In this document: piece after piece, positions 5,202-59,194 of the stretch | How the letters are laid out: each line of letters starts with the position of its first letter | Numbering within the stretch: position 1 is the stretch's first letter | Assembly: GCF_035083965.1 (NCBI RefSeq) | Contig: NC_089722.1 | Span: 43,648,697 to 43,712,696, forward strand | Direction of reading: 5' to 3' | Source: Branchiostoma lanceolatum | Taxonomy: Eukaryota; Chordata; Leptocardii; Amphioxiformes; Branchiostomatidae | DNA length: 64,000 bases | Notes under the pieces: generated by a model | What the model was told of the DNA's origin: nothing | What the model saw: the letters and a program-made list of their open reading frames with translations, nothing else | Databases searched by the model: none | Translations under genes and position numbers: made by a program

Positions 5202-5369
5202 ATCTACATCTACATCTACATAGGTGTCACATCACTCACACACACTCACTCATGACCCATGACCTCAGTGGTCGTAGGGGCGTCATGACAGCCAGCCGCA
5301 ATGATCCGTGCCCATCCTGTTCTGTCCTCGGCCTCTCTGATCAGCTGTGCAGTGCTCAGGCCAGTCCAT
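5202..5369 (-). mobile_element. LINE 3' fragment with (TAGATG)n tail
   Basis: The intron copy at 54660-54710 reads cgaaaccacacgtcacatcgc without interruption. Here about 168 bp are inserted between cgaaactacac and gtcacatcgc. The minus strand translates as LSTAQLIREAEDRTGWARII, resembling the C-terminus of a non-LTR retrotransposon ORF2, and ends in tandem TAGATG units. It is heavily 5'-truncated. Confidence 0.6.
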
Positions 5370-9989: not shown

Positions 9990-10019
9990 TACTTGCGGTT
10001 GTTCGTCTTGAGTCGTCCT

Positions 10020-17039: not shown

Positions 17040-17490
17040 ACTCAATCATAATCCATGGTAAATGTGGGTAAAGGAGGGTAAATATCTCTTTTAGTAAAGG
17101 CATGTATACATCCTCTGTAAATATGGGTAAATTTAGCTGTGAGAATACTTGGTAAGGTAAATCTCGGTAAATGTGCTTGATAAATGTGAGAAATGCTACG
17201 TACGGTAAATCTGGGTAAATGCACCGAATATATGTGAGAAATACTCCCTACGGTAAATCTCGGTAGATGCCCTGAATATATGAGAAATACTCGCTACGGT
17301 AAATTTCGGTAAATGCATGATTTACACGACCTCGGTAAATGTAGGTAAATAAGGCAAACATTACCAGCTATACCTTGTGGGTAAATGCGGGGTATATTCG
17401 CACATTTACCGATGGATAAATGCTGATAAATCTTTGGTAAATGTAACCTTTACACGGCTTTACATTACATTTACCATTGTGGTAAATTCC
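17040..17490. repeat. Subterminal ggtaaat repeats of the CACTA-like element
   Basis: The word GGTAAAT or a close variant occurs more than 15 times in about 450 bp, and its complement ATTTACC recurs near the left end (11155-11280). Dense short subterminal repeats are the usual transposase-binding regions of CACTA elements. Confidence 0.75.
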
Positions 17491-19164
17491 ACTTTTCGTG
17501 CAGTGTAATGGGTCCCCTACTGCTGTTCCCCAGAAGTTCTGTGACGGGTCTCCTGCTGCAGTTTTATTCAATATTGATACAAGCAATGTCAAAGAACATC
17601 CAACAGGAGCCAAAACAAGTTTTAAAAATCAGCCTGGACCAGATACTGATGAGAAACCCTACATATGCGGGGAGTGTGGGCACAAGACAGCTGACACGAG
17701 TAATCTAAAGAGACATATGAGAACCCATACTGGTGAAAAACCCTACAAGTGTGACCAGTGTGACTATTCTGCTGCACAGAAAGGCCATTTGGATCGACAT
17801 CTAGGAAAACACACCGGTGAGAAACCTTACATGTGTGACGAGTGTGGATACAGGGCAGCTAGGAAGGATAACCTTTCCAAACATATGAGAACTCATACTG
17901 GTGAAAAACCCTACAAGTGTGACCAGTGTGATTATTCCGCTGCACAGAAATCTACATTGGACAACCATCTAGCTGGACATACCGGTGAGAAACCCTTTAT
18001 GTGCGGAGAGTGTGGGTTCAGGACAGCTCACAGATGTAGCCTTTCCACTCATATGAGAACCCATACAGGTGAAAAAAAATACATGTGTGACCTGTGCGAT
18101 TATTCTACAACACAGAAAAGTCATTTGGATCGACATCTAGCAAAACACACGGGTGAGAAACCCTACATGTGTGGCGAGTGTGGGCACAGGACAGCTCTGA
18201 AGTCTGACTTGTCCAAACATATGCTAATCCATGGTGACAAGACCTTCAAGTGTGACCAGTGTAATTATTCCGCTACACAGAAATCCAGTTTGGACCGACA
18301 TCTAGCCAAACACACTGGTGATAAACCGTATATGTGTGGGAAGTGTGGGTTCAAGACGGCTCACAAGTATAACCTATCCACTCATATGAGGACCCATACA
18401 GGTGAAAAACCCTACAAATGTGACCAGTGCGATTATTCTACTGCACAGAAAAGTCATTTGGACACACATCTAGCGAAACACACCGGTGAGAAGCCCTACA
18501 TGTGTGGCGAGTGCGGGCACAGGACAACTCAAAAGTCTGCCTTATCCATACATATGAGAACCCATACAGGTGAAAAACCCTACAAGTGTGACCAGTGTGA
18601 CTATTCTGCTAGACAGAAATCCACCTTAGACAACCATCGAGCCCAACACACCGGGGAGAAACCCTTCATGTGTGGGGAGTGTGGGTACAGGACTATCCGA
18701 AAGTCTCAGTTGTCCCGACATATGAGAACCCATACAGGTGAAAGACCCTACAAGTGTGACCAGTGTGACTATTCTGCTGCACATAACTAAGTGTAATTTG
18801 GACAGCCATTTAGCGAAACACATCGGCAAGAAACTATATGTGTGGGATGTGCGGGTACAAAACAACTAACAATTCTGACTTATCCAAACATTTGAAAATC
18901 CACACTGGAGAAAAACCCTTCAAGTGTGACCAGTGTGATTATGCCGCTGCACATAAATCCACATTGGACCGACATCTAGTCAAACACTCTGGAGAGAAAC
19001 CCTACATGTGGGGTGAATGTGGGTACAGGACAGCTCACAAGCCTCACCTATCCAGCCATATGAAAACCCATACTGGTGAGAGACCCTACAAGTGTGACCA
19101 GTGCGACCATTTATACTGCACAGAAAGTCCATTTAGACCTACATCTAGCAAACCGTTCAGGTGA

Positions 19165-36060: not shown

Positions 36061-37284
36061 CGATCTGTCATGGGCGACAGAAAGTTGTGGAAACATGTGT
36101 GTCACCTCTAACTCAAGAGGATGAACTGAACTGAACTGAAACTGGTAGATGCTACCATGCTGGCCGTACAAGTGAAAACGTTCCAACTCTCTCTAACAGA
36201 CCTGAAAGAAATGTTACAGGGTTACCTGACTTACCAAAAGGTTTAAAAGATAAAAGGCTTGGTTCATGTAGCAAAACACAAAGCCCTGCATGCGTGGTGA
36301 ATGTGATTACGAGGCAACTCAGAGGAAAAGTTAAAAGGAATGGTTTCCTCAATAACGACGCTGAATGTTAGATTATTCTTCAATCTACAGCCCATGACAT
36401 AATAAACAAAACATATCCCATCTGGCCTAAAGGAAATGTCACAGGGTTACCTGACTTACAGAAGGGTTAAAGGTTAAACGGCTTCGTTCCCTCAATAATG
36501 AATGTTAGATTATACATAAATCAACAGCCCATGACATAAACAAAACAAAACATATCCCACCTGTAATGAAAATATGGAAGACGAGTCTTATCGTCTATCC
36601 AGTTACGCAGACATTAAAAGAATGAGCTGGGTGTTGGCGGTTCGAGGTTGTAATGTCTTTTTCATTCGTCTTCCACTGTCTCGGTAAAAGAAACCGAACC
36701 ATTAAGTTGGAACTTGGTGTCAGTGGCTAAGAAGGGAGTAGTCATATGTTACATTGTTCATCATTTTCTGCGCGTCTACTCCGTGTTACATGTACGTGTA
36801 CTTGAAATCAGCCTACAAGCAAGAATTTGCAAAGAACTTTCAATTTAAAAGTGGGCAAAGGCAATCTTAAACCCGGCAATAATTAGAAAAATAGAATGTA
36901 ACTGTCGATACAGAGGGAGAGAACACTCACCGAGAACTATAACGTGAAGTATAATGATTAGTCAAAGGTTTATTTTGTGTGCACAAGATGCTAACCCACC
37001 TCCATTGGTGATTTTTCCCATCTAAATTACAGTCCCCTGTATAAAAGTTCAGACTTAACAAAGAAAGAAAGAAGCTGAAGGAAGAAATGAAGAAAGGAAG
37101 GAAGGAAGGAAGGAAGGAAGGAAGGAAGGAAGGAAGGAAGGAAGGAAGGAAGGAAGGAAGGAAGGAAGGAAGGAAGGAAGGAAGGAAGGAAGGAAGGAAG
37201 GAAGGAAGAAAAATAAACATACCAAAAGAATCCAGAAAGGTAAGCTAAGCAAATGGGTTCAACCATAATATAAACATGTAGGCG
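36061..37284. other. Intergenic DNA upstream of cassette 5
   Basis: Collinear with 58370-59190 (cagaaagttgtggaaacatgt, gggttacctgacttac, ttttcattcgtcttccac). It carries an internal imperfect repeat of the gggttacctgactta/gttaaa segment. The only distinct addition is the (GGAA)n microsatellite at 37092-37209. Confidence 0.5.
37092..37209. repeat. (GGAA)n microsatellite
   Basis: About 29 perfect GGAA tetranucleotides in a row, absent from the collinear copy near 59100-59140, where only scattered gaaag words occur. GGAA arrays can bind ETS-family factors. Here this is only a sequence feature. Confidence 0.95.
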
Positions 37285-41378: not shown

Positions 41379-42575
41379 TTAACATAGATTTTTATCGGCG
41401 TGTTTCTTCATGTGCCTCCTCAAATTAGACTTGTCACCCGTAGAATAACTACAAACCTCGCACTTGTAAGGTTTCTCCCCAGTGTGGGTGGCCATGTGAC
41501 GGTTAAAATCGGCCATTCGTGCTGTAGAATAACTACAAACCACACACTTGTATGCTTTCTCCCCAGTGTGGGTAGCTATGTGCTTCTTCAAAGTGGACAT
41601 TTGTGCTGCAGAATAATCACAAACCTCGCACTTGTAAGGTTTCTCCCCAGTGTGGGTAGCGATGTGGCGCTTTAAGTTAAACATTTGTGCTGCAGAATAG
41701 TCACATAATTCACACTTGTATGCTTTCTCACCAGTGTGGGTAGCCGTGTGATATTTCAAAGCGGACTTTCGTATTGCAGAATAATCACAAACTCCACACT
41801 TGTATGGTTTCTCACCAGTGTGAATAGCCATGTGCTGCTTTAAGTGAGACATGTGTGCTGCAGAATAGCCACAAATGCCACATTGGTAAGGTTTCTCCCA
41901 AGAGTGTGCAGCCATATGACGCTTCAAATTACACTTCAAAGCTGTGGAGTAAGCACACGTCTCATAGCTGTATAGATTCTCACCAGTGTGTGTAGCCCTG
42001 TGCAACTTTAAGTAGGACATATGTACTGCAGAATAGTCACAGAATTCACACTTGTACCGCTTCACACCAGTGTGGGTGGCCATGTGACTCTTCAAATTGC
42101 TCTTCCGGGCTGTGGAGTAAGCACACATCTCACAGCGGTATGGCTTCTCACCAGTGTGTGACCTCATATGGACCTTTAAATATGATTGGATGACTGCAGA
42201 GTAGTCGCACTGTGGGCATTTGTACGGTCGGTAGTTACTGTGTTTCGCCATGATGTGAAGTTTGAGGTGAGCCTTTCGTGCAGCAGAATAGTCGCAGACA
42301 GCGCACTGAAAAGGCCTCTCACCACCGTGAGTTGCCCTGACATCCTTTACAAGGTCTTCCTTTGTTTGTTTACTTTCACCCGCGGCGTGCGACGTCCTAA
42401 CGTGCCGTTTCAGGGCGGACATCTTGGATGTGGAGAACTCGCATTCCCGACATCTATGTGGTCGCTCACCGCTGTGAGTCTTGCGACGCTGTTTCCTTGT
42501 CCCTCCGTGGTCTGTTTCTGGACAAGCCTGTTTCTCTTCTGTCTGTTCATGCAGATCTTCTGCTGCTTCTTCCAT
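41379..42575 (-). CDS. C2H2 zinc-finger protein, 12 fingers, MEEAAEDL family (copy 2)
   Basis: The protein has 398 aa, the same length as the copy at 1155, with an identical start (MEEAAEDLHEQTEEKQACPE). The ATG follows TCTTGCTAG on the minus strand, an intron acceptor. Twelve fingers. Finger 6 has lost its first Cys (YSYETC, after an ENLYS linker) and finger 11 has Phe for the core Leu (MADFNRH). The first eight fingers are nearly identical to copy 1; fingers 9-12 differ in both framework and helix (QMFNLKR for QMSKLKR, RMADFNR for QMSALKR). The C-terminus is ADKNLC rather than ADNKPN. It is head to head with cassette 6, although 9.9 kb of inserted DNA now lies between them. Open frame, probably expressed. 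Confidence 0.87.
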   Translation of the reverse strand: MEEAAEDLHEQTEEKQACPETDHGGTRKQRRKTHSGERPHRCRECEFSTSKMSALKRHVRTSHAAGESKQTKEDLVKDVRATHGGERPFQCAVCDYSAARKAHLKLHIMAKHSNYRPYKCPQCDYSAVIQSYLKVHMRSHTGEKPYRCEMCAYSTARKSNLKSHMATHTGVKRYKCEFCDYSAVHMSYLKLHRATHTGENLYSYETCAYSTALKCNLKRHMAAHSWEKPYQCGICGYSAAHMSHLKQHMAIHTGEKPYKCGVCDYSAIRKSALKYHTATHTGEKAYKCELCDYSAAQMFNLKRHIATHTGEKPYKCEVCDYSAAQMSTLKKHIATHTGEKAYKCVVCSYSTARMADFNRHMATHTGEKPYKCEVCSYSTGDKSNLRRHMKKHADKNLC

Positions 42576-43797
42576 CTAGCAAGAGGAAAAAAGTTAAAAA
42601 TAAACACGAAAACTTGGTATTGTAACATGTTTGACACAATGAAAAGAAATGATGTTCAGAAGAAGCCCGCAATTGTTCAGGTGTGTCTTTTTTTAAACAA
42701 CATAACTTCGTATCTTGGTTGTTGTATGTTCTTAACTGTTCGTCACAGCAAGAGGAAACCGACCTAGTTTTTCACGCGAGAGGCAAAACATCACCTGACA
42801 TCATACACTACTTCCTTAGCATAACAGGAAGCAAACATTGCGACAGCCCTTCTTACGTCACCACTTTAGCATGCCGGGAAACAAGAATGTATGGCCTTTC
42901 CCCCGAACATGTCCACTCGTTCCCAAAGTCTCACCTACCACCCCAGAACGATCCCTCTCTATTGGTGTAGGGATGTCACGATGTCATCTCGTGTCCAAAA
43001 TTATCTTGGCTCTCTACAAGCGTCCACACCATGAATGTGTGTTGAACAGGCCGAGAGTCGGAGCACGGATCTGAACGGAAGCAAGTATGCTCCCACAGGA
43101 CCAGCTGTGCGCGGCTGCACAAGGAGGGCTACTCCAGCTGGCCAGGTTCTAACTCAGGGCTCCTTGCTCTGTGGCAAGATTTCGTTGGACCTGTGTAGGC
43201 CTTGTCTACCTGGCCTGTCTACCCTGACTGTCTACCTTTTTTTGGACCCCAAGGGTATGCATGGGGGTTTAATGGATTTTCATTGCGGAAAAACTGGGTC
43301 AATGCAATTCAAGATGTGTCTGAGCTGGATGGAAGACAACACCTATTGGTGATGGGTTGGGGGGGGGGTGAAGATGACATTAGATGACACAGTTTTCCGG
43401 CTGGAATAAGTTCCATAAGAAGTTGGTGCATATACACGTAGTTGACAGTAGAAATCCTAAAGACATTAGATGACACAGTTTTCAAACTAGAATACTTTCC
43501 ATAAGAAGTTGGTGCATAAACACGCAGTTAACATAGGGAAAATCGGTCAACTTTAACTCGATAAGTCTCCTTTCACACATAAGCCCGATTCCTTCGGTAA
43601 TAAGCAGTTGATTAGTCTACGTCTGACGAGTACAAGGACAGCTTCCGTTGCCTGATCTGGCCCGTGCCGACCGTTTTATTGAGTTTTTCCGTGACCATGT
43701 CTTGTGACTCAAAACGGCGCGTCACAAGATAGCCAGGGTAGACAGGCCAGGTAGACAGGGCCAGCTTTTCCCGCAAACCCGTGTAGGCCCTGGATAC
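42576..43797. other. Upstream region of minus ZNF copy 2
   Basis: 42576-42660 still matches copy 1; the rest is unique to this copy. It holds an inverted pair (ctgtctacctggcctgtctaccctg near 43200 and its complement near 43737) and a tandem duplication of about 80 bp starting gacattagatgacacagtttt (43374 and 43459). No gene seen. Confidence 0.45.
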
Positions 43798-44248
43798 AGT
43801 CTGGCATCCAGGCTAACCGAGTCTTCAACTAAGTCTCCCAGGGACCGCTCTCCGTACATCTGGTACTTATTACAGGGATGCCATGACGTCACCTAGTGCC
43901 GTGTCGTTTGTGTCTAAATGTCGGAACTAAACACCACGTCGACAAGACATAAAATGTGCCCTGAACAGACCGACAGTCAGAGCATGGATTTGAACGACAG
44001 CAAAGGTTCTATTATCCGGCTAGCGGCTGTGCACGTTTACGTACTGAGATCGTCATAGCTGACACTGTGACAGATTTTAGTTCTATCGCCCCCCTCCCAT
44101 CCCCCTCCCCCCCCCATATCCCGGCACCAGCACGACAGGGAGTTGTAAAAAACAGACTCCAGTCTAACCTGAGACACAGATTGGCCGCCAGGACGCTCTC
44201 GGAACGACGCCTCCTCTGTCAGGTTGGACGACATTTCTCTCCGAACTT
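43798..44248. promoter_or_regulatory. Head-to-head region, duplicate of 4240-4667
   Basis: Near-identical to the region between the first gene pair (ccatgacgtcacctagtgcc, taaacaccacgtcgacaaga, cgacgcctcctctgtcagg). It ends at CCGAACTT (44241-44248), where a 9.9-kb block begins. The rest of the region resumes at 54148. Confidence 0.6.
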
Positions 44249-45129
44249 GAGTCGGGGATGTCTCCGAGTGGCGAGTATGGCTAGTATCAGGGCCATCACA
44301 GGCGGGCCATGACAGGCGGGCCACGACAGACGGAATGTACCATTTCATGTGTGTAGGGGTGTGCGGCCCCAAACAGAACGGCGTGGAGGACAGTATGCAG
44401 AGCTAGAGGCGCCACTTGCCATTCCCAGAGTATGCGAGGATGAGTGAATGGGGGTGTACAGCTACAGCAAGTGCGAAATCGTACGAAATGGAACAAAATC
44501 GAACGAAATGGAATTAAGTGTATGGATGAACTTTATTCCTCGACAGTTGTACATGGTACAATGTATGGCAAGAATGACAAAGCAATTTATAAGCATAGTC
44601 TATTCTAAAAACTATGACTATATGGATATGGACGTAAAAGGCGTAATGACATATTGTGTGTTAAACGTTTCTGTCTGTTACAATACATTCTCTCTTTTGT
44701 AAAGCGCTACAAATGCATTGGCTTAAGTACGTAGATATATATAAGTAGCTTGAAAATGTCTGTGTTTGTGTTTATCTTTGGCAAGTTTTTTGGATACTAG
44801 ATTTACAGGTGATCATATTTTCGCCTATCTACACATTCTACTGTACTAGTATAGGCTGGACATTAGAAAATGATATTCATCTTCGACGCTATCTTGACAT
44901 GAGGGACATCGTCTCTGGTTGGCTAAACATTATAATACCGACCTTTTTCTATTTCTAGGCTAGGCAGTGTGCACGCACTGATTTTTAATTTGTTATATCA
45001 ACTAAAAAAGATTTATTACGAATTGATGAAATATGATTTATTTTCCATTGTGAAATTGAACGAAGTGGAAAGAATTTGAACGAAAATAAACGAAATGGAA
45101 TTAGATAAAACGAAATGGAGTCTGCCCAA
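44249..45129. other. Left part of the composite block
   Basis: Starts with repeated ggccatgacaggcg words. 44470-44520 and 45045-45120 both hold repeated gaacgaaatggaa words, bracketing about 550 bp whose left edge (tggatgaactttattcctcg) resembles a minus-strand retroposon tail. No gene seen. Confidence 0.35.
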
Positions 45130-46011
45130 ATCACCCGGCTAAGTCGGACCACCGCGGACGGCTTCGTGGCTCCGCTAGGCGACCGATCAGGGTGCGTGAG
45201 GTGTCAGGCGGCCCCGATGGTAGCGGGGGTGGCGGCGTGACGGACTCGGGCGGGGACCGGCTAAAGTGTGGGCGGTCGGCGGGAGAGGTCGCCTCTGGCC
45301 TCCGATGTGACCAAGTTGCGGTGGTTTTACATTGAAAAGAAGGTTGCTCAACCTACCTTGAGAAAGTGGTCATTTTTTTACTGGGCTGGGAAATGACGGC
45401 GAGAAATCGCACACTCTCTCGCCAGTCGTTTTGTTACCCCGCGGACAAGGCTGCCACTCCCCGCGAGGGCAGCCAGAGATCGACAACCGGCTTGGAAGGC
45501 GGCCGCTCCTCCACTTTTGCGGGTGAAGACGACCGTGCCGAGGGCGACCGGAACGAGCGCCGGGGCAATCCTCCGTGGAGGCGAAGCCCGGGTCCGTCTT
45601 TCTCCTCGGAGGAGCGACCCGGCCCAACGTCTGCGTGCGAGTAAGCCTTGCGGACTCGGTGGTCGGAGACCCGGCCGTCCGCCTCCTCGGCGAACAGTCG
45701 GTCATGAGAGTGCGGGACCGTTCCTGCTTGACGGGACGGCTCGGGTGTTGAAGGGAATTGGAAGCAACGGTCAGGTGTGGCCGGGAATTCTGCGTTCAGG
45801 CTCCCGAGGGTTCGCGCCCACCTTACGGCAGCGACGGACTCGGTGGTCTGCCGGTGTCTCTCGCGTGTCCTCTCCCCCTTGTGGGATTTAGAGTGCACGG
45901 CGTGAGCGGCGTGGCGTGGCGGGGCATACGGCGGGCTGTCCTCTCGATCGGGCCGGCAACGGTCTGGAGGAGCGCCACCGTCCCCGTCCTTTAAACCACA
46001 TCAGTAAATCC
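45130..46011. other. GC-rich spacer, probably rDNA intergenic or external spacer
   Basis: An abrupt rise in G+C at 45130 continues into the satellite and 28S fragment. No conserved rRNA core is recognised here. Open frames on both strands look like composition effects. Confidence 0.4.
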
Positions 46012-47525
46012 TTCGGCCTGCACGGGCCTGCCGCCTTTTAACTGCACATCGGAACGGGTCGGCCACCGTCGGCCACCGTCCCCGCACTTACACTGCATCG
46101 GTACGGCCTGCACGGGCCTGCTGCCCCTTAACTGCACATCGGAACGGGGTCGAACACCGTCGGCCACCGTCCCCGCACTTACACTGCATCGGTACGGCCT
46201 GCACGGGCCTGCTGCCCCTTAACTGCACATCGGAACGGGGTCGAACACCGTCCCCGCACTTACACCGCATCGGTACGGCCTGCACGGACCTGCCGCCCCT
46301 TAATTGCACATCGGACCGGGGTCGGCCACCGTCGGCCACCGTCCCCGCACTTACACCGCATCGGTACGGCCTGCACGGGCTTGCCGCCCCTTACCTGCAC
46401 ATCGGACCGGGGTCGGCCACCGTCGGCCACCGTCCCCGCACTCATACCGCATCGGTACGGCCTGCACGGGCCTGCCGCCCCGTAACTGCACATCGGAACG
46501 GGGTCGAACACCGTCCCCGCGCTTACACCGCATCGGTACGGCCTGCACGGGCCTGCCGCCCCTTAACTGCACATCGGAACGGGGTCGAACACCGTCCCCG
46601 CACTTATACCGCATCGGTACGGCCTGCACGGGCCTGCCGCCCCTTAACTGCACATCAGACCAGGGTCGGCCACCGTCCCCGCACTTACACCGCATCGGTA
46701 CGGCCTGCACGGGCCTGCCTCCCCTTAACTGCACATAGGAACGGGGTTGGACACCGTCCCCACACTCATACCGCATCGGTACGGCCTGCACGAGCCTGCC
46801 GCCCCTTACCTGCTCATCGGACCGGGGTCGGCCACCGTCGGCCACCGTCCCCGCACTTACACCGCATCGGTACGGCCTGCACGGACCTGCCGCCCCTTAA
46901 TTGCACATCGGACCGGGGTCGGCCACCGTCGGCCACCGTCCCCGCACTTACACCGCATCGGTACGGCCTGCACGGGCTTGCCGCCCCTTACCTGCACATC
47001 GGACCGGGGTCGGCCACCGTCCCCGCACTCATACCGCATCGGTACGACCTGCACGGGCCTGCCGCCCCGTAACTGCACATCGGAACGTGGTCGGCCACCG
47101 TCCACGCACTTACACCGCATCGGTACGGCCTGCACGGGCCTGCCTCCCCTTAATTGCACATCGGACCGGGGTCGGCCACCGTCGGCCACCGTCCCCGCAC
47201 TTACACCGCATCGGTACGGCCTGCACGGGCTTGCCGTCCCTTACCTGCACATCGGACCGGGGTCGGCCACCGTCCACGCACTTACACCGCATCGGTACGG
47301 CCTGCACGGGCCTGCCTCCCCTTAACTGCACATAGGAACGGGGTTGGACACCGTCCCCGCACTTACACCGCATCGGTACGGCCTGCACGGGCCTGGCGCC
47401 CCTTAACTGCACGTCGGACAGGGGTCGGCCACCGTCCCCGCACTTAAACCGCATCGGTACGGCCTTCACAGGCCTGCCGCCCTTTATTTGCACATCGGAA
47501 CGAGATCGGCCACCGTCCACGCACC
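46012..47525. repeat. 81-bp GC-rich satellite, about 18 copies
   Basis: The unit reads CCGCATCGGTACGGCCTGCA, CGGGCCTGCCGCCCCTTAAC, TGCACATCGGAACGGGGTCG, then aacaccgtccccgcacttata. Variants carry an extra 12 bp (a doubled gtcggccaccgt), giving 93. It directly adjoins the 28S 3' end, so it is probably the repeat array of the rDNA intergenic spacer. Unit length divisible by three keeps long spurious frames open. Confidence 0.9.
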
Positions 47526-47639
47526 GATACTACTTCGGGCGGCGGCGGGCAGGGCAGCCCAGCGCACACAGGCATCGACTCTGACATTGGAACGGCGCTC
47601 CTCCCTCAGGACAGGCCTCAGCACCAAGGACATTCATCG

Positions 47640-47903
47640 CCGGCGGACTAGACTTTTTCCCCGCGGGAGAGCGGTATCGCTTCGGGAGCTATAATAGGTT
47701 TGAATACCAGGCTACTCCGAAGGAGGCGCCAAGCATATCGTTGCTTTCTCGGCTGGATTCTGACTTAGCGGCGTTCAGTCATAATCCCTTAGATGGTAGC
47801 CTCGCACCACCGGCTCATCAACTGAGCGCCTGAACCAAATGTCTGAACCTGCGCCGTTCCTCTCGTACTGAGCAAGATTACCATTGCAACAACACTTCAT
47901 CAA

Positions 47904-47935
<32 letters not shown>

Positions 47936-48169
47936 TAATCGGGGCCCAGCCCGACGTCTCCAGGTTCGCTTTCCTTGACCACTCCGCGTTCGCGAATGAA
48001 ATGTGCCTTTCGGGCGTGGGCGGCCCGCGTGGGCGGCCCGCGCCCTAGGTTTCGGCGCTCAACGCGGCGGCCCTCCTACTCGTCGCGGCTTGGCTCGGCC
48101 GGAGCATACTGCCGCGACGGCCGGGCATGTACTCGACGCTCCGGCGCATCCATTTTCAGGGCTAGTTGA

Positions 48170-48203
<34 letters not shown>

Positions 48204-49065
48204 ATTCCGACTTCCATGGCCACCGTCCTGCTGTCTGTATCGACCAACACCTTTTCTGGGGCCTGATGAGCGTCCGCATCGGGCGCCTTACTTAACCCGG
48301 CGTTCGGTTCATCCCGCAGCACCATTTCTGCTTACCACTCGCATTCAAGGCCCGGCTCCACTCGAGCGGCGACGGCAGGGATCCCACCTCGGACCGACGG
48401 AAGGCCCTTCACCTTCATTGTCCCTCTTGGTTTTGTACTACATCCGTGCTTTAGGACGGGTCGGGTGGGCGACCGGACATCGCCGCTGATTTCCGCCGCC
48501 CTGCAGCTGCCTGGCGCACCCGTCGCCGACGACGCGCGGGCCGTTGTAACGCGCTGGCTGGGAACAGTCCGTCTCGGTGGAAACAACCCGAAAGGCGTGG
48601 GGCAGCGTGGCGGTCGATTGCTTGTCCTCGGTCCGACAGCGGGCGCAGCGAGACCCGAAGGCACCAGGCACATTCCGCGGGGACGTGGCCGCCGTCGAAC
48701 CGGTCGCAACGCTCCGCACGGAAGAAGTTTGGTGAGTCTGCACACCTCGACGCCGGCCGATCGGTCTTGCGATCTATGCTCGGCCGAAAGGGGTGCGGAC
48801 AGACGTCCTGGAAAGCGCAGGCGGAGAGCCAGGAGCGCCCATGCCGACCCGCTTGGCGTCGGACCCGGCAGCTCCCTTGGAGCTTTGTCGGGCGCCTCGA
48901 GTTCCCGTCGTTCCCTACCCGGCTAAACCAGCGAGCTACCCCGAGTAGCCTCGTCGAGGACGGAGTCAGGTCCTCCCGGTGAAAAGTTTGAGTGGGCGAG
49001 CGCAACTGGGGCCGCAAACATCCTGGCGGAGGGGCGTCGCGTCGTGAGTCTCCGTGGGGTAACAG
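47640..49065 (-). rRNA. 28S rRNA fragment, internally deleted (pseudogene)
   Basis: The minus strand carries well-conserved 28S cores in the correct order: GTGTGTAACAACTCACCTGC, AATCAACTAGCCCTGAAAAT (about 48150-48195), ACGAGTAGGAGGGCCGCCGC with AAACCTAGGGCGCGGGCC (about 48040-48085), and ACCGTCGTGAGACAGGTTAG to GGATTATGACTGAACGCC (47775-47935). At about 47935 a large internal part of 28S, including the peptidyl-transferase region, is missing: gggctgggcccc runs straight into the sarcin-distal segment. Another deletion lies near 48345. 48490-49065 is GC-rich and only tentatively assigned to the D2/5' region. Too short and deleted to work in ribosomes. Confidence 0.8.
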
Positions 49066-49692
49066 GTCAACTCACCCCAAGTCCAACAATTTACTACCAA
49101 CTCGCCCCACTTCTAAATATTACTTTACATGCTAAGAAAGCCTTGTGACTCTAATTTCAACCTCTTCTCTGCGCATTTAACGCTGATGAATGCCGGGGGC
49201 GCCGGCGGGCCATGTTGCATGTCTAGCCGGGTGAGACTAGAGCTAGCGGCCGTACACGGTGGCACGGCGGGCCGACATGCCGACCGGGTCCGCCAGCCGA
49301 GTACGTTGCTAAATACGTGCTCAGCAAAAAAGAAATGTTGAATTAGAGTCACACCGTTTTGCTAGCACATGTACAAGTAATACTAGTATTTAGAAGTAGG
49401 ATTCATGCATATAAAACCAGTATTAGTAGGCATCCTTCCATCTTTTCAGATGATGGTAGAACTCTGGATTCGGCAACTTCTCATGTGGCTCTGAAGTCCA
49501 ATCCTGGCGTGACAGTCTCGTCCACAGTTTGGACATCAGAGGAGATCTGAGGAGATCTAAGGTTGCTATCTCTCCTTCCTTCTTTGTCTTCTCTGCTCTA
49601 TAAAACTAGTATAAAACCAAGTTTAATAAGCCCTAATTTGGGGCGAGTTGGTAGTGAATAGTTAGGGCGAGTTGGACTTGGGGCGAGTTGAC
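49066..49692. mobile_element. MITE-like element with GTCAACTC inverted ends
   Basis: The left end GTCAACTCACCCCAAGTCCA and right end (reverse complement GTCAACTCGCCCCAAGTCCA) are inverted repeats. A second inverted word, ctaccaactcgcccca, lies within both arms. Total 627 bp. No coding sequence. The flanking duplication is not clear. It sits exactly between the inverted 28S and 5.8S fragments. Confidence 0.7.
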
Positions 49693-50050
49693 TAGGATTC
49701 GTCTGCGCGGTATGGTTGAGTCTCACGGCGGGGCCTTGGTGAGACGACTCTTCTCTTGCACCCCGGCACGGTGTTGTGGTCTGTGCCTCGATGCAATCGG
49801 TTTAGCGGGCGAGTGACCTATCCTTAAGCGTCGGACCGTTGAAGTTCGAGCGGGCCAGCCACCGGCGACGACTGGTTGTTACGCTCCCCGAGGTCTTCAA
49901 AAGAAGGGCGGGCGCAATCGACCCTGTCATTCCTGGCCGGCCAGAGTCTAGGGGCCGCAGCGGTCTTCCCGGTGGGTACCGGTTCGCGGAAGGGCGACTT
50001 CCCTGTCTCTGAAAGACGGTGCCTAGAGGCTTTTGATGTAAAATCAAAGA
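49693..50050 (+). other. Probable ITS1
   Basis: GC-rich sequence immediately upstream of the 5.8S start. No 18S 3' end (ggatcatta) is found, so 18S is missing or lies beyond a break. Confidence 0.5.
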
Positions 50051-50165
50051 AAAACGACAACATTTAGCGGTGGATCACTGCGAGAAGTAATGTGAATTGC
50101 AGGACTCTTCGAACGCACTCTGCGGCCCAGGGTTCGTCCCGGGGCAACGTCTGGCCGAGGGTCGG
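50051..50165 (+). rRNA. 5.8S rRNA fragment, internally deleted
   Basis: The plus strand reads AAACGACAAC, TTAGCGGTGGATCACT, GTGAATTGCAGGAC, TTCGAACGCAC, GCGGCCCAGGG and CGAGGGTCGG, the 5.8S landmarks in order. Two internal gaps remove about 30 nt after ggatcact and about 17 nt after gcaggac, including the cgatgaagaacgc segment that pairs with 28S. Hence a pseudogene. Its orientation is opposite to the 28S fragment. Confidence 0.85.
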
Positions 50166-51388
50166 TTTTACCTTCAATCGCGTCAATCCTCTCTCTCTCT
50201 CTCGAAAGTTTCAGTTCCACTGTAATATGTGATTGCTACCGTCTATGAAGCCCACATTTTATAGAGAGATATGTCCCAATAAGTACACAAGTACAGTACT
50301 GTCTAAGACGACCACCCTGGGACCGAAGAAAAGCAGTCTTCTTGGACAGGTGGTCTTCTTCACACTTCACTTCACTGTTCTTCATGACAGAGCTCGAGAC
50401 ATAACGGTTTCCAAATTAATGGTGAACTGTATACCATATTTTTCATACATACATGTTATCAATCTATAACTAGACTTTTTATAATCTACATTACCCATGT
50501 ACTATTACACGTAACAGTATTCCAAGTATCTATATTAACACCGCTGTGCTTGTTAAGCCATGCCCCCAGGTCATGCTTAGGTCAGACTGCCAGGACTGGC
50601 TGAAATTGAACTTATCTCAAAGAGCCAAGCCCCCAGGACATGGTCGGAGTGCCAGGAGAGGCTGAAATTCAAAATGCTGACTCTTTACTTTGAAAAAGCA
50701 TTTATACCTGGACCTTTTGGTCTCTGTCATACTATCATTTCAATATCTATCAGCAGTGTGCTATAAATGCAATGGGTGTGAAATATCCTTTTGAATACTA
50801 CCTATTACTAGTATCAGTATTATAAAATGCCCTGTGCTTCACATGCATCAAGGATGCAATCATAAAAACAACATCTATAGTGATTGACATCCAGGGTGGA
50901 AAGAACTTTATTTCAGGATAGGAACACAGACTTTCTTTATATTAGCTGACTAAAAAAAGGCACAATGATGAAATTAACAGTATACCTATACTTATTATAA
51001 GTCATATCAAAGATGTTTTTCCATACATAGAATAAGATAAATATACACATTGATTTGTGTCACTTTCTCCAAAAGGGTATACGACCGGCTATTATGCTCC
51101 TGACATCAATGATGCAATTAACTTAACATGTATATAAGGAAAGCAAACGGTGAAAAATCATATCAAAGATGTTTTCCATACATGGATATACATGGATATT
51201 CACATTGATTTGCATTGATTTGTAACTTTCTCCGTATACAACCGGCTACCATACTCCTTATATCAATGATGCATTAATCTCGATTTGAAAATGACATGGC
51301 ATTAACAGCACGCTGTCTGTAACTTGTTCTGTAAAATTTTGTCACCTTTACATAATGGTCACTAATATAAGTAAGTGGACTGCTGCTA
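50166..51388. repeat. ITS2 remnant and AT-rich DNA with tandem duplications
   Basis: A short ITS2-like piece runs to about 50215. 50550-50670 is an imperfect 80-bp duplication (ccccaggtcatg/gctgaaattgaa against ccccaggacatgg/gctgaaattcaa). About 50998-51120 and 51157-51275 are a diverged duplication (atatcaaagatgtttt, cacattgattt, ccggctaycatactcct, atcaatgatgcaat). No gene seen. Confidence 0.6.
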
Positions 51389-52887
51389 TTATAACAACTT
51401 GTTATTGAGGATCTCCTATACCATGCTTCTTCTGAAGTAGGCCATGTGTATCTGTAAGGAGATAGAAATACAGTACTTGATTGTCACTGTTTGTACTATA
51501 TAAGTTATCATTAAGGTAGATGGGTATTCCAACAATCATGGATGGGAGACAATGAAAAAACGATGAAATGTATTTAAATTGAACTGTTATAATGAATTCA
51601 CAGTGCCACAACTGGCCAAGATAGTGGGAATATGGTATGAATCCAGCGTACTACCATATTTTCCTCAAACCCTCAAACATAGATTGCAAACACTATTTAA
51701 ATAAGGTCTAGATACCAACTTACATAGCCCTTTTGATCATAAGCCAAGGCGAACATATTCATAGAATCATAGAGCAGAATGATACCTACCTGGTCAAAGA
51801 TTATGCTTGTGTCCCAACTGGCGTACTCAGCGAATTTACAGGCAAACACTCAACAGTCGCTAGCATTCATCTGCTGTTGGATGTTCTGCAGAAGAAACAG
51901 AGATCCCAACAGTATGAGATAGACTTACAGACTCTTGTCTAAAGCACATCCTAAAATAACAAGCAAACTGACAGTTTTACCTCAGGATACTGTGATGTCC
52001 AATCAGACAAGTCCAAGTTGCTTTCCTTCTTGTCCTTGTGCTCTGCTTGTTGGTAATCTGTTGGTGATAAAGTAAAAACAAAGCAAAGGTTTAGACAGCA
52101 GTAAGTTAATGTTCTCAGTCCAAATGTTTTCTGGATAGTGAAACTACATGTACACTTTGTATGGTGAACAATCCCATTGCATGGTAAAAGACAAAATAAA
52201 TCAACCCATCCCACCCATGGAGTCATAATACTTGATGCATTTGCTCCTCATGCCCAATAACACAACACATAAATAACAAAGTTAACACAGAATACCACAA
52301 CATAGGGCTATGGACACTTAACATCTGTTTAGGAAGTAAAAGACTCATTGTAACAAGTTATACACCCACCTGAATATTACCACTGTCCATAGTCATATTC
52401 ATGTGAACATTGATGATCTGTTGAAGATAAAGAAAAACAATCTTTAAACCATGTAAATTGAAACCTTCATTGCACATTTATATGTTAAACAAATGGATTT
52501 AACTTTTGTTTTATGTTTGTGAGGAATTAATTTCATGTTAGGAGGGTTCAACTTCATGGTTGAAAGTCATGTCTCATGTGTAATGCTATGAGTTTGCAGT
52601 TAAAATGATGAACATAGCACAACTGCTGATAAATAAAAATTTACAACATATGCCACAAACACACATATATAATACATGGGCCTCCTACCATATAGCACAA
52701 ACGCTGAGTATCATTCAAGTGTTGTTGGTATTTGAATGTCAACACAAATGGACTTCCATCCTAGTCTCTATATTTTCTTACTCACTGTGTGTAAAAATAT
52801 TTTCTACAAGGTACATGAACACATAAGCGTGCTTACTTTGTCGTTAAGCCAGTTGAGTTCAGCTAGAGTGTGCATGTTCTTGCCGTA
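51389..52887 (-). pseudogene. SENP (Ulp1/C48) SUMO-protease pseudogene, five exons
   Basis: The minus strand shows exons with proper AG/GT borders. 52837-52887: YGKNMHTLAELNWLNDK. 52370-52417: IINVHMNMTMDSGNIQ. 51981-52057: YQQAEHKDKKESNLDLSD then WTSQYPE. 51790-51885: NIQQQMNASDC then TGA then VFACKFAEYASWDTSIIFDQ. 51389-51451: IHMAYFRRSMV then TAG then EILNNKLL and the final stop. These match SENP1/2 landmarks LNWLNDEIINFYMN, QQMNGSDCGMFAC and HMPYFRKRMVWEIL in order. The exon(s) holding the catalytic His and Asp, between the second and third pieces, are not found. Two stops replace the Gly after the catalytic Cys and the Trp near the end. The retained introns show it is a genomic copy, not a retrocopy. 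A possible further piece (MALQDTYDWLEKQ) lies near 53030-53075. Confidence 0.85.
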
Positions 52888-54147
52888 CTGGGTGCACAAA
52901 AGTGCACATGCACCCTGTATTTCAAGCCCAGAAAGTACTTGGAAGTATAATAGTTGGTAAAAGCAAGAGGCCTTTATCAAGCTTTCTCAGTGAAAAAATT
53001 CTACAGGCAAAATTACCTCATTACCCAGCTTGTTTTTCCAGCCAGTCGTATGTGTCTTGCAGAGCCATAGTTATACCCTAGGACAGGAGAACAAAAGTAA
53101 ATACAACACATTTGATACCAGAAAATGATCAATACTTGGGACCTGGGACTTAGACCTTAGGTCCTTGGATGTCAGAGATGTACAAAGAACATTTTTATAG
53201 TAGAACACATTGTGAACCATTTCTAAACCTAATACAATTATATGATTTACGGTACATCAATCAAATCTGCTTTAAATAATATTCATCACCCTTTACAGTG
53301 GTACCCAATATGCTATGATCATTGGTGGTGTCAGGGGTAGGGCATCATGGAGAGCTTGTTAATTATCATTTAAAATGACGTCATATGTTACTGTAATGTA
53401 ACTACTTGCTGTACATTTGATTAGGGCTAATTTCGTGTCAGTGACTGTATAATTTTGAAATTCCTAAACTTTTGTTTTGTGACTTAAACTCACTATAAGC
53501 AGCCAGAAGAGCAAATGAAACATGCATGTTGTGATTTGGATACTAAACTATGAATTATTATGTAACTTTTATAAGAATATACGTTATAATGATTAATACT
53601 AAATTTTACAGATCATGATCAGAATCATAGGACTAGAAAAATAACTAGTAGTTAATTAATGAATATAGATTGTGGATGGCTCCTTGCCCCAAGTAGAAGT
53701 GCATTGCACACAATTAAATAATTTTACTTGGAAGAACTGCAAGATGGATCTTTTAGTTGCTGTTCATAGCTTTGTTGTTGTTTCGCCAGACGTGGTCTCT
53801 CTATATAGTATATGCGTAGTACGATCTTCTGCTCCAAAATGAGTCATAGTACAGTCATATCATGGCAAACCAGGCCATGCAACATGCCATCGTAATGCTG
53901 ACGAATCATAAAACCTCACGTAGTACACAAAACGACATGGACTTCCAGCAGAATTAAGGGTTATCCCGTCAAATTCCGTCCTCACTACTCTGTTCTCGCC
54001 ATCCGAAGCCGCCATCTTGGTCTGTGAAGTTGCAGTGACGTAATATGGCCACCACAGGCGATTTGGCCGCCACAGACGATGTCCCGGATGTAGGGCCACG
54101 ACAGACGAAATATATTGTATACTCTTGCTCGGAGTAGATCTCAGATG
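52888..54147. other. Right part of the composite block
   Basis: AT-rich, mostly featureless. The right end (54010-54147) has gccaccacaggcg and ggccacgacagacgaaatat words similar to the left end of the block, and ends cagatg before CCGAACTT. Confidence 0.35.
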
Positions 54148-54389
54148 CCGAACTTTCCAACTCTCGTAAACAAACGTCACATGAACGTCACAGTGTGACC
54201 TCACTTCTAAAGGTCAAGGGTTACAGTGCGTGGTATTCTCAGTGCACCCAATAAGGCCACTGTATGTATGTAAATACCTAAATATATCGTGAATAATAGT
54301 CCTATTTTGAGTTTCCAAAAGGGAACAAAGAAAGAAAAGTACACAAATATAAAGAAGACAGCAAAATGGATTTGTTCGATGCTTCTACA
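54148..54389. promoter_or_regulatory. Right half of the split head-to-head region
   Basis: Continues the homology with 4660-4924: tttccaactctcgtaaacaaa, two ACGTCA half-sites, gtgtgacctcact, and gggaacaaagaaagaaaagt. Before the 9.9-kb insertion this joined 44248. Confidence 0.6.
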
Positions 54390-54535
54390 ATGCAGGCAGA
54401 ACTTCCCGCACACAAACTGGGTAATCAGGCACAAACCATGACCTTTCACCCCACGCCAAGGTCAGCCGTCACCCGTTGTTTCGCTCTGAAGACGCTTACA
54501 GTATTTCTGAGGGTAAAAAGCAATACTAGAAGCAG
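54390..54535 (+). promoter_or_regulatory. Promoter and untranslated exon 1 of ZNF cassette 6
   Basis: TGACCTTTCACCC at 54439-54451. The second DR1-like motif is degraded (gtcagccgtcaccc), as in cassette 1. The block ends TAGAAGCAG with the donor GTAAGAACTTG at 54536. Confidence 0.6.
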
Positions 54536-55510
54536 GTAAGAACTTGATTTACCATAAATATCTGCCTTATCTTGAAGCAGAGGAGCTATAGGTTATTTCC
54601 ATGGTGTATGGGCGACATCAGGACCGAAACTTTGGCTTTTCGGGGTGAGAAAATTGGCGAGGGGGGAGGGGGGCGAAACCACACGTCACATCGCTCGGGA
54701 CAAAAGGGCAATTTTTGTTAGAAAAGGTCTAAGAAGCGTGCTACAGTACTCTGATTCACTTTATCTTCACGGTGACAAAATTTCACGGCGTACGGAAAAT
54801 TGACATTTTCACTGAACTTTAACTTCACGGATGGATGTGTGAAGGAATCGTAAATGATAACCCCCTCTTTATGCCGACTGACCATGTTGACGACCATGTT
54901 TGATGACCATGGCACGGAAAACGGATTATGAGTTTGGATCATGGACTATTATGTATGACATTTACTTTTGATGTAGATAGATAGATACAATTAAGGATGT
55001 TTAGAGGGGTTCGGAACACAACCTGAGTCATTATGCGCTGCGCTCTCGAAACATCATAATATATGCTATAATAGTCAGCAAATTTGACTGTGAGCATCAA
55101 CAAGAAGAAGAAGAAGAAGAAGAAGACATTTTTTCCGGTTATGATAAGTTCAAGGTACTAAGTACAGAGGTGACCGTGAAAACAGATAACATAAAGTTAC
55201 AGTGAAAGAAAGAAAAAACAAACAGTATCACTAAGTTGAGACAGAATCACAAAAGAAACCATGTTAAAAAATTCCGGGTCATGCATGCGTAGTCAACTTT
55301 GGAAAAAAATGTCTGTATGCCAGATTCATGATAAGAATGAGGGGGGGGGGGGATCAAGGGAAGAGTACAAGTGGGACAGGTTTTACCGTCATTACGATGG
55401 GAGTGGAGGCTGGACAGTAGTGCCAACTTCCCATTTTTGGTATTAGTAGAAAAAATACGGTCTTGACTTGTTTAATCGTTTCAAATTCTTTGTCAATTAT
55501 TATCTTAGAC
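54536..55510 (+). other. Cassette 6 intron
   Basis: Collinear with cassette 1 intron parts. A retroposon tail with (AAG)n ends at 55128. A poly-G tract lies at 55341, then the gtgggacaggttttaccgtc block and the acceptor TTATTATCTTAG. Confidence 0.5.
54955..55128 (+). mobile_element. Retrotransposon 3' tail ending in (AAG)n
   Basis: Cassette 1 (5555-5590) lacks this insert. The right end has atagtcagcaaatttgactg, then tgagcatcaac and seven AAG units, a tail style seen in some non-LTR elements. The left edge is uncertain; the insert may start near 54865. Confidence 0.5.
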
Positions 55511-56671
55511 ATGGCAGAGGCAGGTGATGGGTCTCCTACTGCTGTTCCCCAGAACCTCTGCGATGGGTCTCCTACTGGAGTTTTCTGGGACGGAGATGCA
55601 AGCAACGTTAAAGATCAGCCAACTGGAACCAAAACCAGTTTGGACAACCAGCCAGAAGCACATACCAATGAGAAACCCTACATGTGTGGGGAGTGTGGGT
55701 ACAGAACAGCTGACAAGCATAACCTATCCCGACACATGAGAACCCATACTGGTGAAAAACCCTACAAGTGTGACCAGTGTGACTATTCCGCTTCACAGAA
55801 ATCAACCTTGAACCAACATCTAGCCAAACACACCGGTGAGAAACCCTACATGTGTGGTGAGTGCGGGTACAGGACTGCTGTCAAGCGTAACCTATCCAGA
55901 CATATGGGAACCCATACAGGAGAAAAACCCTACAAGTGTGACCTGTGTGATTATTCTGCCGCTGAGAAATCTGTCTTGCAGAGCCATCTAGCAAAACACA
56001 CCGGTGAGAAACCCTACATGTGTGGCGAGTGCGGATACAGGACAACACACAAGGGTAACCTGTCCAAACATATGAGAACCCATACAGGTGAAAAACCCTA
56101 CAAATGTGACCAGTGTGATTATTCCGCCGCACAGAAATACAATTTGTACAGACATCTTGCAAACCACAGCGGCGAGAAACGCTTCATGTGTGAGAAGTGC
56201 GGGTACAAAACAACTAACAATTCTCACTTATCCGAGCATATGAGAACCCACACAGGAGAAAAACCCTTTAAGTGTGACCAGTGTGACTATTCTGCTGCAT
56301 TGAAATCCTCTCTATACAAACATCTAGCCAGGCACTCTGGAGAAAAACCCTACATGTGTGGGGAGTGCGGATACAGGGCAACTCTAAAGTCTCACTTATC
56401 CATACATATGAGAACCCATACGGGTGAGAAACCCTACATGTGTGGTGAGTGTGGATACAGAACACCTCGCAAGTCTCACCTATCCAGACATATGAGAACC
56501 CATACTGGTGAGAAACCCTACAAGTGTGACCAGTGTGATTATTCTGCAGCCCAGAAATCTGACTTGGACAGCCATCTAGCAAAACACTCTGGAGAAAAAC
56601 TCTACATGTGCGGAGAGTGCAGGTACAGGACTGCCGACAAGCGTAGCCTATCCAGACATGAGAACCCATAG
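55511..56671 (+). CDS. C2H2 zinc-finger protein, 11 fingers plus a truncated one (cassette 6)
   Basis: The protein has 386 aa. The start at 55511 follows TTATTATCTTAG and opens MAEAGDGSPTAVPQNLCDGS with PTGVFWDGDASNVKDQ. Eleven full fingers follow, A/B alternating except fingers 9 and 10, which are both A type. Finger 12 ends abruptly (SLSRHENP) because two bases are missing where others read cagacatatgagaac; the new frame stops at once. Two more decayed fingers follow to about 56790. The loss affects only the end, so the protein may still work with 11 fingers. Head-to-head partner of the minus gene at 41379. Confidence 0.82.
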   Translation: MAEAGDGSPTAVPQNLCDGSPTGVFWDGDASNVKDQPTGTKTSLDNQPEAHTNEKPYMCGECGYRTADKHNLSRHMRTHTGEKPYKCDQCDYSASQKSTLNQHLAKHTGEKPYMCGECGYRTAVKRNLSRHMGTHTGEKPYKCDLCDYSAAEKSVLQSHLAKHTGEKPYMCGECGYRTTHKGNLSKHMRTHTGEKPYKCDQCDYSAAQKYNLYRHLANHSGEKRFMCEKCGYKTTNNSHLSEHMRTHTGEKPFKCDQCDYSAALKSSLYKHLARHSGEKPYMCGECGYRATLKSHLSIHMRTHTGEKPYMCGECGYRTPRKSHLSRHMRTHTGEKPYKCDQCDYSAAQKSDLDSHLAKHSGEKLYMCGECRYRTADKRSLSRHENP

Positions 56672-58370
56672 AGGTGAATAGCAAACCTACATGTGTGAGC
56701 AGTAGAAGTATTCATCAGCTCGAAAATCATTATTTGTCCGGCATCTAGCTAAACACACTGATGAGAAATGCGTACGAATTGCAGGTACAGGACAACAGAA
56801 GTTATCCGACCATACATACATGTATATTGAACATAAGAAAATTGATGTAAGAACAATGCAATGTCTGAGAATAAGCCATCTCACAACTCCGAGTGCGCAT
56901 CTGCAGCCGCGATGCATTGTGGTTTGGGAGCAAAGTTTTAAGTCCCTTTTTGTAAACAATTATTTGTGAGACGTGTTTGCAACAAGCCCGCTTGGAGTGG
57001 CCGTAACATTACCCACAATCCATGCGGTGCTGGAAATGTGAGAAGACTTATTCATACAGAAGTGAATCTGTATAAATATGATAACACTGTACTGAATCTG
57101 TACATCTACAGTACTTTAGTCTCTATCGAATACTTTATGTCATGGTATTCGTAAAGAAAACGTACAACAGAGTGGAACATGCTTTGTTTGAATTGCCTTA
57201 AAAGTAAGTGTAAATGATAAGGTTTTGACACTCGATACCAAAGTTATTTCCGTCAAATCTAATATGGGCCAGCCTGACAGCTGACTTTGTGCTGACAGTT
57301 TACTAAAAGTTGTGCTTTATTTTAAGAAGTCTGCATAAAGTTAAAGGCTAATCAATCACTAACCTATAGCTATATATTAGTACACGAATGATTATGCTAT
57401 AATGGAGTGTTAAACATAATCTTCTGTAATATGACGCGACTTTATATGTAAGAATATTGATTTAGAATATTTTAAGAAGCATGATTACTGATAACAAGCA
57501 TAATTACTGATATAATTTCAAAAAGCTGTGCATTTTTCAAGGCTGTGATGTTTATTTTTCTTACTTACTTATTTACTAGCATATACACTATATATTGGAA
57601 TAATTATGACTGATATACCTGAAATGTATCATAGTGAACTAAGGTTGTGTTTTGTGAAACGTCTGTCATGGTCGATATGATATTTACTAGCATATACACT
57701 ATATATTGGAATAATTATGAATGATATATCTGGAATGTATTATAGTCAGCTAAGATTATGTTTTATGAAGCGGCTGTCATGGTCGAAATGTAAGAAGACA
57801 GCTGATTCAAAATATGCTAATAAGTTTGATAGAATATACTAGTAAGTTTAATAAAAGAACAGGATGCATTCCATTTGTATCTAGTGTGCAAGTGAAAACG
57901 TCCCAACTCTCTCTAGAAGGCCTGAAAGAAATGTCACAGGGTTACCTGACTTACAGAAGGGTTAAAGTTGAAATGCCAAGTCCCTCAACGACGCTAAATG
58001 TTAGATTTTACTTCAATGTCCAATTACTGATATGATTTCAAAAAGCTGTGCATTAAGTTCAAGGCTGTGACATATTTTTTTCTTAGTTACTTATTTACTA
58101 GTATATACACTATATATTAGAATAATTATGACTTATATACCTGGAATGTATCATAGTGAACTGAGCTTGTGTTATAAGAAGCGTCTGTCATGGTCGATAT
58201 GTAAGAACACAGCTGATTCAAAATATGCTAATAAGTTTAATAAAATATGCTACTAATGTTAATGATAATGTGCTAATAAGTTTAATAGAATATGCTACTA
58301 ATGTTGATAAAAATATGCTAGTAAGTTTAATAAAAGAACAGGTTTCATTTCATGTTGATCTAGTGTGGTA
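56672..58370 (+). repeat. Finger remnants, 3' tail and AT-rich repeats after cassette 6
   Basis: Collinear with 34700-36060 (cassette 4), with one further copy of the tail unit (58020-58200). TTTAATAAAAGAACAGG words near 57848 and 58327 mark tail ends. A short fragment (tctctctagaaggcctgaaa) matches 36187. Confidence 0.6.
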
Positions 58371-59194
58371 GGATCTTCGATCTGCCATGGGCGACAGAAA
58401 GTTGTGGAAACATGTGTGTTACCTCTAACTCAAGAGGATGAACTGAACTGAAACTGGTAGATGCTACCATGCTGGCCGTACAAGTGAAAACGTTCCAACT
58501 CTCTCTAACAGACCTGAAAGAAATGTCACAGGGTTACCTGACTCACAAAAGGGATAAAAGTTAAACGGCTTCGTTCCCTCAATAATGAATGTTAGATTAT
58601 ACATAAATCAACCACATGACATAATAAACAAAACATCTATAATGAAAATGTTGGCGGTTCAAGGTTGTGATGTATATTGTTTCTTTTTCATTCGTCTTCC
58701 ACTGTCTCGGCAAAAGAAGCCGGACCCAATAAGTTAGAACTTAGTGTCAGTAACTAGAGTAGTCATATGTTACCTTGTTCATCATTTTCTGTCTGTCCAT
58801 CCCGTGTTACATGTACTTGCAATATAGCCCACGAGCAAGAATTCGCAAAGAACTTTCAATTTAAAAGTGGGCAAAGACAACAAAGGCAATCTTAAACCCG
58901 GCAATAATTAGGGAAATAGAATGCAACTGTCGATACAGAGGGAGAGAACACTCGCTGAAAACTATAACGTGAAGTGTAATGATTAGTCAAAGGTTTATTT
59001 TGTGTGCACAAGATGCTACCAACCTTCATTGGTGATTTTTCCCATCTAAATTACAGTTCCCTGTATAAAAGTTCAAAATTAACAAACAAAGAAAGAAAGA
59101 AGCTGAAGGAAGAAAGAAAAAAGGCAGACAGAAAGAAAAGGAAAAAAATTCAAAAAGAATCCTGAAAGGTCAGCAAATGGGTGCAACAATTCTA
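58371..59194. other. Intergenic DNA upstream of cassette 7
   Basis: Collinear with 36061-37284 but shorter and lacking the GGAA array. No gene seen. Confidence 0.5.

Follow-up and report, generated by a model that had tools for sequence, protein, structure and literature searches.

How does a block of nearly 10 kb, made up of ribosomal DNA (rDNA), satellite DNA and the remains of a SENP1/2-like protease gene, come to lie in the shared promoter of two zinc-finger genes that point away from each other? The locus that raises this question lies in a stretch of 64,000 nucleotides (hereafter the window) from the amphioxus Branchiostoma lanceolatum (contig NC_089722.1, positions 43,648,697 to 43,712,696), which carries tandem C2H2 zinc-finger genes with a TGEKPYMCGECGYRT-type repeat that we take to be a type known from amphioxus (Branchiostoma). 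An earlier note, made from the letters of this DNA alone, offered two origins for the block, i.e., either a large unrecognised transposon that picks up rDNA and genes or a repaired break that captured DNA. Our analysis indicates that the block is real and probably the product of one insertion, which struck the promoter shared by one of the two duplicated pairs of zinc-finger genes, and we assign a probability of roughly 0.55 to its having arisen by capture of DNA during break repair, in either of the two forms set out below.

Insertion site

The 8-mer CCGAACTT occurs on the plus strand at 4660-4667, 44241-44248 and 54148-54155 and at no other site on either strand of the window. Motif search and comparison of the junctions identified the first of these as an intact (empty) paralogous site with a single copy, and the second and third as the left and right copies that border an insert of 9899 bp (44249-54147); relative to the intact site, the locus thus has gained or retained these 9899 bp plus one additional copy of CCGAACTT. 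The border repeat is exactly 8 bp long and the flanks join precisely as they do at the intact paralog, with 100% identity over 68 bp on the left, where the 8-mer forms the end of the match, and over 34 bp on the right, where it forms the start. Over wider paralogous flanks, identity is 87.9% on the left (4262-4667 versus 43836-44248) and 83.2% on the right (4660-5210 versus 54148-54692). The block is flanked by open reading frames (ORFs) that encode C2H2 zinc-finger arrays and are both directed away from it (41382-42575 on the minus strand and 55421-56668 on the plus strand); the intact site likewise lies between zinc-finger array ORFs at 1158-2351 (minus) and 17486-18787 (plus). Two claims of the earlier note are hence borne out, namely that the 8-mer occurs once at the intact site and twice at the exact borders of the block, and that the block splits a head-to-head zinc-finger promoter region whose flanks are continuous at the intact site. 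The block pulls this divergent promoter nearly 10 kb apart.

By a simple arithmetic estimate, a border repeat of at least 8 bp would be expected by chance at about 1 in 10,000 blunt, homology-free insertions. As a background, seven pairs of paralogous stretches yielded 14 indel rows with well aligned flanks (one indel being included twice, from two comparisons), and border repeats ranged from 0 to 10 bp; the 10-bp repeat belonged to a 27-bp indel and two 7-bp repeats to indels of 225 and 26 bp, so that one of the listed indels has a border repeat of at least 8 bp. An 8-bp border repeat with a single copy at the empty site can arise by three routes, i.e., duplication by a transposase, fill-in of a staggered break, or recombination at an 8-bp core, and all three are mimicked by microhomology deletion.

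The last of these processes would make the block ancestral, the intact site having lost it through a deletion between two CCGAACTT copies, which would leave exactly the pattern observed. A module of ~75 bp, which starts inside the insertion-site 8-mer, is found in the zinc-finger cluster at 4663-4736, 36177-36262, 57897-57984 and 58489-58563 with unrelated DNA upstream, and the insertion position is the very edge of this recurring module. With regard to polarity, three of the four other copies found of the right-hand module (58489, 36177 and 57897) were compared over 40, 80 and 150 bp upstream, and fitted neither the intact arrangement nor the right end of the block above shuffles (268 to 979 of 1000 shuffles were as good as the real alignment); they do not discriminate between insertion and deletion. 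An ancestral block would, however, leave the motif arrays at both ends (see below) unexplained, and it would require an rDNA and pseudogene block within a divergent promoter as the starting state; we consider it improbable. The 8-bp repeat, the precise join, the matching ends and the mosaic structure are direct observations; insertion is argued for here and not proven, and we infer it, as well as the repair mechanism and the order of events discussed below. As for an assembly artefact, rDNA and satellites are often misassembled, but here each junction coincides to the base with an 8-bp repeat of which the paralog has one copy, which would be unexpected for a chimera, and we give this explanation next to no credence.

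Ends of the block

Motif search, alignment and shuffles showed that the left end (44249-44340, plus strand) consists of an imperfect inverted tip (44252-44278) and three tandem 14-bp GGCCAYGACAGRCG units (at 44291, 44305 and 44319). The right end (53750-54147, minus strand) is CpG-rich, carries the 14-bp motif at 54047, 54065 and 54094 and an imperfect inverted tip at 54119-54145, and by eye may include the first exon and promoter of the SENP gene; as a SENP first exon, 53750-54147 gave no Pfam match. A motif shared by both ends in direct orientation had been reported previously; in fact, GGCCAYGACAGRCG is present in three copies per end, all in the same orientation, lying 43-84 bp inward of the left tip and 41-101 bp inward of the right tip, and these copies account for 6 of the window's 14 sites with at most three mismatches. 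The sequence common to both ends is GGCCACGACAGACG[G/A]AAT[G/A]TA. The best direct alignment between the outermost 100 bp of the two ends has a score of 21, which was reached in none of 5000 roughly dinucleotide-preserving shuffles (best score, 20) and by 6 of 18,521 random 100-bp pairs drawn from within the block, with the satellite and the ends excluded; three of these six came from one nested repeat.

The inverted tips are another matter. When the left tip was aligned to the reverse complement of the right tip, 20 of 28 columns were identical with two gaps, and an ungapped comparison matched at 13 of 40 positions, with three matches within the first 13. Of 5000 shuffles, 33 matched the tip score at 30 bp and 52 at 40 bp, as did 288 of 18,596 random 40-bp pairs from within the block; among random pairs from the window, an inverted score of 10 was found in 27 of 2000 at 40 bp, in 131 at 60 bp and in 470 at 100 bp. 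A run statistic of 3e-4 was picked post hoc and is given little weight. The inverted similarity is weak and within reach of chance, and the previous statement that inverted ends are not evident was therefore nearly right, apart from this weak gapped alignment. Searches for the end motifs in viral_contigs (two patterns) and genome_contigs (one pattern) gave 0 matches, and neither end region matched a phage collection; these are non-animal collections and thus uninformative for an animal genome.

One rival reading is that the whole 9.9 kb was moved as a unit by a large non-autonomous DDE-type transposon that makes an 8-bp duplication; the transposase would have bound the subterminal direct repeats, and the inverted tips would have degenerated. 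The exact 8-bp repeat, the position of the motif arrays and the 20 identical columns of the tips all speak for such an element. On the other hand, tip scores of this size lie within reach of chance, the 8-mer departs from the hAT pattern, the CpG contrast between pieces of the insert (see below) speaks against a long common history, and no transposase domain was found in the 19 of 80 ORFs scanned. We regard a transposon of this size as possible but doubtful. The search for a transposase or recombinase domain used Pfam on 19 of the 80 stop-to-stop ORFs of at least 60 amino acids in 43500-55000, and its negative outcome is weak evidence; matches in the block to CUB (0.13), TUNAR (0.072) and ZU5 (0.024) were below curated cut-offs and were disregarded.

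The length of the repeat had been linked to hAT and to Merlin or P-type elements, and the length does agree. Duplications made by hAT elements follow the pattern nTnnnnAn, and the elements themselves begin and end with short terminal inverted repeats; CCGAACTT has C at position 2 and T at position 7, its reverse complement AAGTTCGG has A and G at these positions, and the tips show weak gapped similarity only. For P and Merlin elements, the 8-bp duplication is present but clear terminal inverted repeats are not, the similarity of the tips being within reach of chance; such elements are also marked by a transposase gene or by multiple copies with the same ends, and the 19 ORFs scanned contain no transposase. 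Helitrons, which make no target duplication, were dropped as candidates.

Composition of the insert

Of the cargo that had been described, i.e., rDNA, a satellite and a protease fossil, all three components were recovered. The SENP1/2-like (Peptidase_C48) pseudogene lies on the minus strand at 51390-53084 and was assembled from exon-like pieces with splice signals that were picked and joined by eye; six pieces (52889-51390) lie within the match and two of these contain stops, while the piece at 53084-53024 had no match of its own. The joined pieces match Peptidase_C48 in Pfam (6.7e-10; 39.6 bits versus a cut-off of 20.7) as well as SENP1 and SENP2 structures (best, 5.3e-25), with a far weaker match to yeast Ulp1 (5e-4). 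Of the two in-frame stops, one comes after the SDC-motif cysteine, which we take to be the catalytic residue, and the other is in the last recognised piece; no piece carrying the HWCLA stretch was found by eye. Retention of introns suggests that the gene was copied as DNA, and, together with a match to animal SENP1/2 far above that to yeast Ulp1, gives the piece the look of host-derived sequence.

The rDNA is scrambled. Rfam matches to 28S rRNA lie in order on the minus strand at 47737-48304 and comprise 48304-48081 (model positions 1171-1379), a weak match in between (model 2962-2984; E 0.31) and 47893-47737 (model 3007-3161), with ~1.6 kb of the model absent between the first two fragments. 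A 5.8S rRNA remnant with internal deletions is found on the opposite (plus) strand at 50059-50164 with a score of 40.5, under the Rfam gathering score of 42. Both rRNA components are thus internally eroded and they differ in strand; no 18S rRNA match was among the Rfam results for the block. Tandem-repeat detection identified the satellite at 46014-47517 (unit of ~81 bp, ~17.6 copies), and the adjacent 45121-46013 is GC-rich with a CpG observed/expected ratio (o/e) of about 1.0-1.1 and is probably rDNA spacer.

The pieces of the insert differ in CpG content. Over 50350-53560, which covers the SENP pieces and ~1 kb past the last piece, CpG o/e is 0.25, whereas the minimum among 1032 overlapping stretches of equal length in the rest of the window is 0.378. 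By contrast, the rDNA/spacer piece has a CpG o/e of 1.09, the piece with the internal transcribed spacer (ITS) and 5.8S one of 1.10, the left piece 1.04, a nested element 0.78 and the SENP 5' end 0.90; the limits of these pieces were set after a first inspection of the data. GpC o/e, used as a control, is 0.98 for 50350-53560 and 0.94 for the rDNA piece, and ranges from 0.85 to 1.13 over all six pieces. Zinc-finger gene bodies are also CpG-depleted (~0.24-0.59 in 1-kb bins over the arrays), which fits the germline gene-body methylation known in amphioxus. The SENP piece looks like a long-methylated host gene body and the rDNA piece does not, which suggests that the germline histories of the pieces were different, and the two were probably joined too recently to have reached a common CpG level. 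A long-lived transposon shared by all pieces would be expected to be more even, and the CpG contrast therefore favours late joining. The contrast between 50350-53560 and 45121-50235 may also offer a means to date and source captured DNA.

Origin of the block

We propose that the block is a mosaic in which stretches of host DNA, probably from two or more unlinked sources, were joined in the repair of a break; that the sources were unlinked is suggested by the CpG contrast and by the orientation of the pieces. One source would be a fragment of rDNA and spacer, scrambled before or after capture, and the other a copy of a SENP1/2-like gene with its introns and perhaps its promoter. Repair may have taken either of two routes. 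In the first, which we slightly prefer, a short non-autonomous transposon that makes an 8-bp duplication would have inserted first, its ends persisting as about 90-100 bp at each border (i.e., the direct motif arrays and the poor inverted tips). Ectopic DNA would then have filled a later break within this transposon, in the way put forward for single-copy Pack-TIRs of animals. In the second, a break with 8-nt overhangs would have been filled directly by captured DNA. The matching ends point to a unit with ends, and the CpG mosaic and scrambled rDNA point to late patchwork; later breakage and patching of a short transposon would account for both. The CpG differences, the scrambled and eroded rDNA and the lack of a transposase or recombinase in the scanned ORFs favour a late, one-off patchwork over a long-lived transposon. 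With regard to the two origins originally offered, the direct arrays (none of 5000 shuffles at 100 bp) thus uphold a unit with matching ends, while a long-lived transposon that carries rDNA and genes fits less well than late patchwork.

Precedents exist for both routes. A survey of 100 reference genomes described 370 Pack-TIRs in 55 species, including 208 of hAT and 115 of TcMariner type, with a median duplicated size of 224 bp; they carry host DNA, sometimes exonic, between DNA-transposon ends, are mostly single copy, and the single-copy animal cases are attributed mostly to gap filling (PMC8277862). The block shares with them a host-derived interior, i.e., the SENP1/2-like pseudogene and the rRNA fragments, for neither of which a parental copy was seen, and differs from them in its 9.9 kb, its several sources and its ends, which were assigned to no known family. 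Insertions of mitochondrial DNA into the nuclear genome (numts) and similar filler captures also place foreign DNA between short target duplications, and 17 of 71 numts showed duplications of 1-11 nt (PMC2567098); the block, by contrast, is a nuclear mosaic with matching motif arrays at both ends.

Several observations weigh against capture in break repair. The length of the block far exceeds the median of 224 bp for duplicated regions in Pack-TIRs (PMC8277862). Direct capture at a break leaves the common end motif unexplained, and the ends are not mutually unrelated, as those of direct filler capture should be. The right motif array sits where the SENP promoter might be and is possibly promoter sequence rather than a transposon end. 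The same CpG contrast would result if, after insertion, only the SENP copy had become methylated, and zinc-finger gene bodies reach a similar CpG o/e in single 1-kb bins (0.24 and 0.26). The end signal itself is less distinctive against the window as a whole, in which 41 of 2000 random 100-bp pairs (pairs close to each other being skipped) attained the direct score of 21 and, in a larger sample, 252 of 9908 pairs did so; in 232 of these 252 matches, both members lay within hand-listed repeat stretches (zinc-finger arrays, satellites and other repeats), and we therefore prefer the shuffle and within-block controls. Should repair capture be correct, the block would be an unusually large and readable example, and the CpG signatures of its pieces may reveal the order of events.

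Recombination at an 8-bp core would be the route if a Crypton-like tyrosine recombinase had inserted the block as a circle, with CCGAACTT as the crossover core, the inverted tips as core arms and the direct arrays as arm-type sites. Cryptons resemble the block in having short direct repeats without clear inverted ends; sites of such recombinases typically comprise two inverted repeats of 11-13 bp around 6-8 bp, some members carry C48 peptidases, and Branchiostoma floridae is among the chordates with Crypton fossils (PMC3212892). Circularisation of the insert would also set the inverted tips around the 8-mer. However, the direct repeats reported for Cryptons are 4-6 bp (PMC3212892), the peptidase of the block is a host-type SENP with introns, the target has by eye no inverted arms around the core, and the tips are weak; the scanned ORFs contained no recombinase domain, although a non-autonomous copy would lack one anyway. 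We hold a Crypton-like origin to be very improbable. The P-element-like Pdre2 of zebrafish likewise shares an 8-bp target duplication and subterminal repeats with the block, and differs in having 13-bp terminal and 12-bp subterminal inverted repeats (PMC10983969), as opposed to a direct motif and poor tips.

It is also conceivable, if unlikely, that the block represents a cargo-carrying element of an unrecognised kind in an animal, one with direct, minisatellite-like end arrays, an 8-bp duplicated or crossover core and vestigial inverted tips, which would move ~10 kb, rDNA and an entire host gene included, and is possibly a tyrosine-recombinase element that integrates circles. A mobile unit of this kind would be an animal cargo element that moves rDNA and genes and whose ends would escape inverted-repeat searches. 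An AT-rich nested segment on the plus strand at 44464-45123, which could be a small cousin of such an element, is terminated at either end by directly oriented arrays of the 10-bp CGAAATGGAA type, an unusual arrangement that the two ends of the block also show; a border repeat of more than 5 bp was not found for it.

Other features of the window

A second nested element, at 49066-49692 between the 28S and 5.8S parts, has terminal inverted repeats of 22-25 nt (22 nt at 95%) and contains repeated CAACTCGCCCC motifs; its own target duplication was sought at its borders and none was convincing. Outside the block, a minus-strand ORF of 1047 codons at 5797-8937, ~1.1 kb past the intact site, encodes reverse transcriptase (3.2e-33) and endonuclease domains and is probably a long interspersed nuclear element (LINE); for an adjoining ORF at 8730-10058, the sole Pfam match was below threshold. 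In the interval that separates the intact site from the zinc-finger array at 17.5 kb, a 60-bp unit is repeated in 29 copies with 96% matches at 11309-13045.

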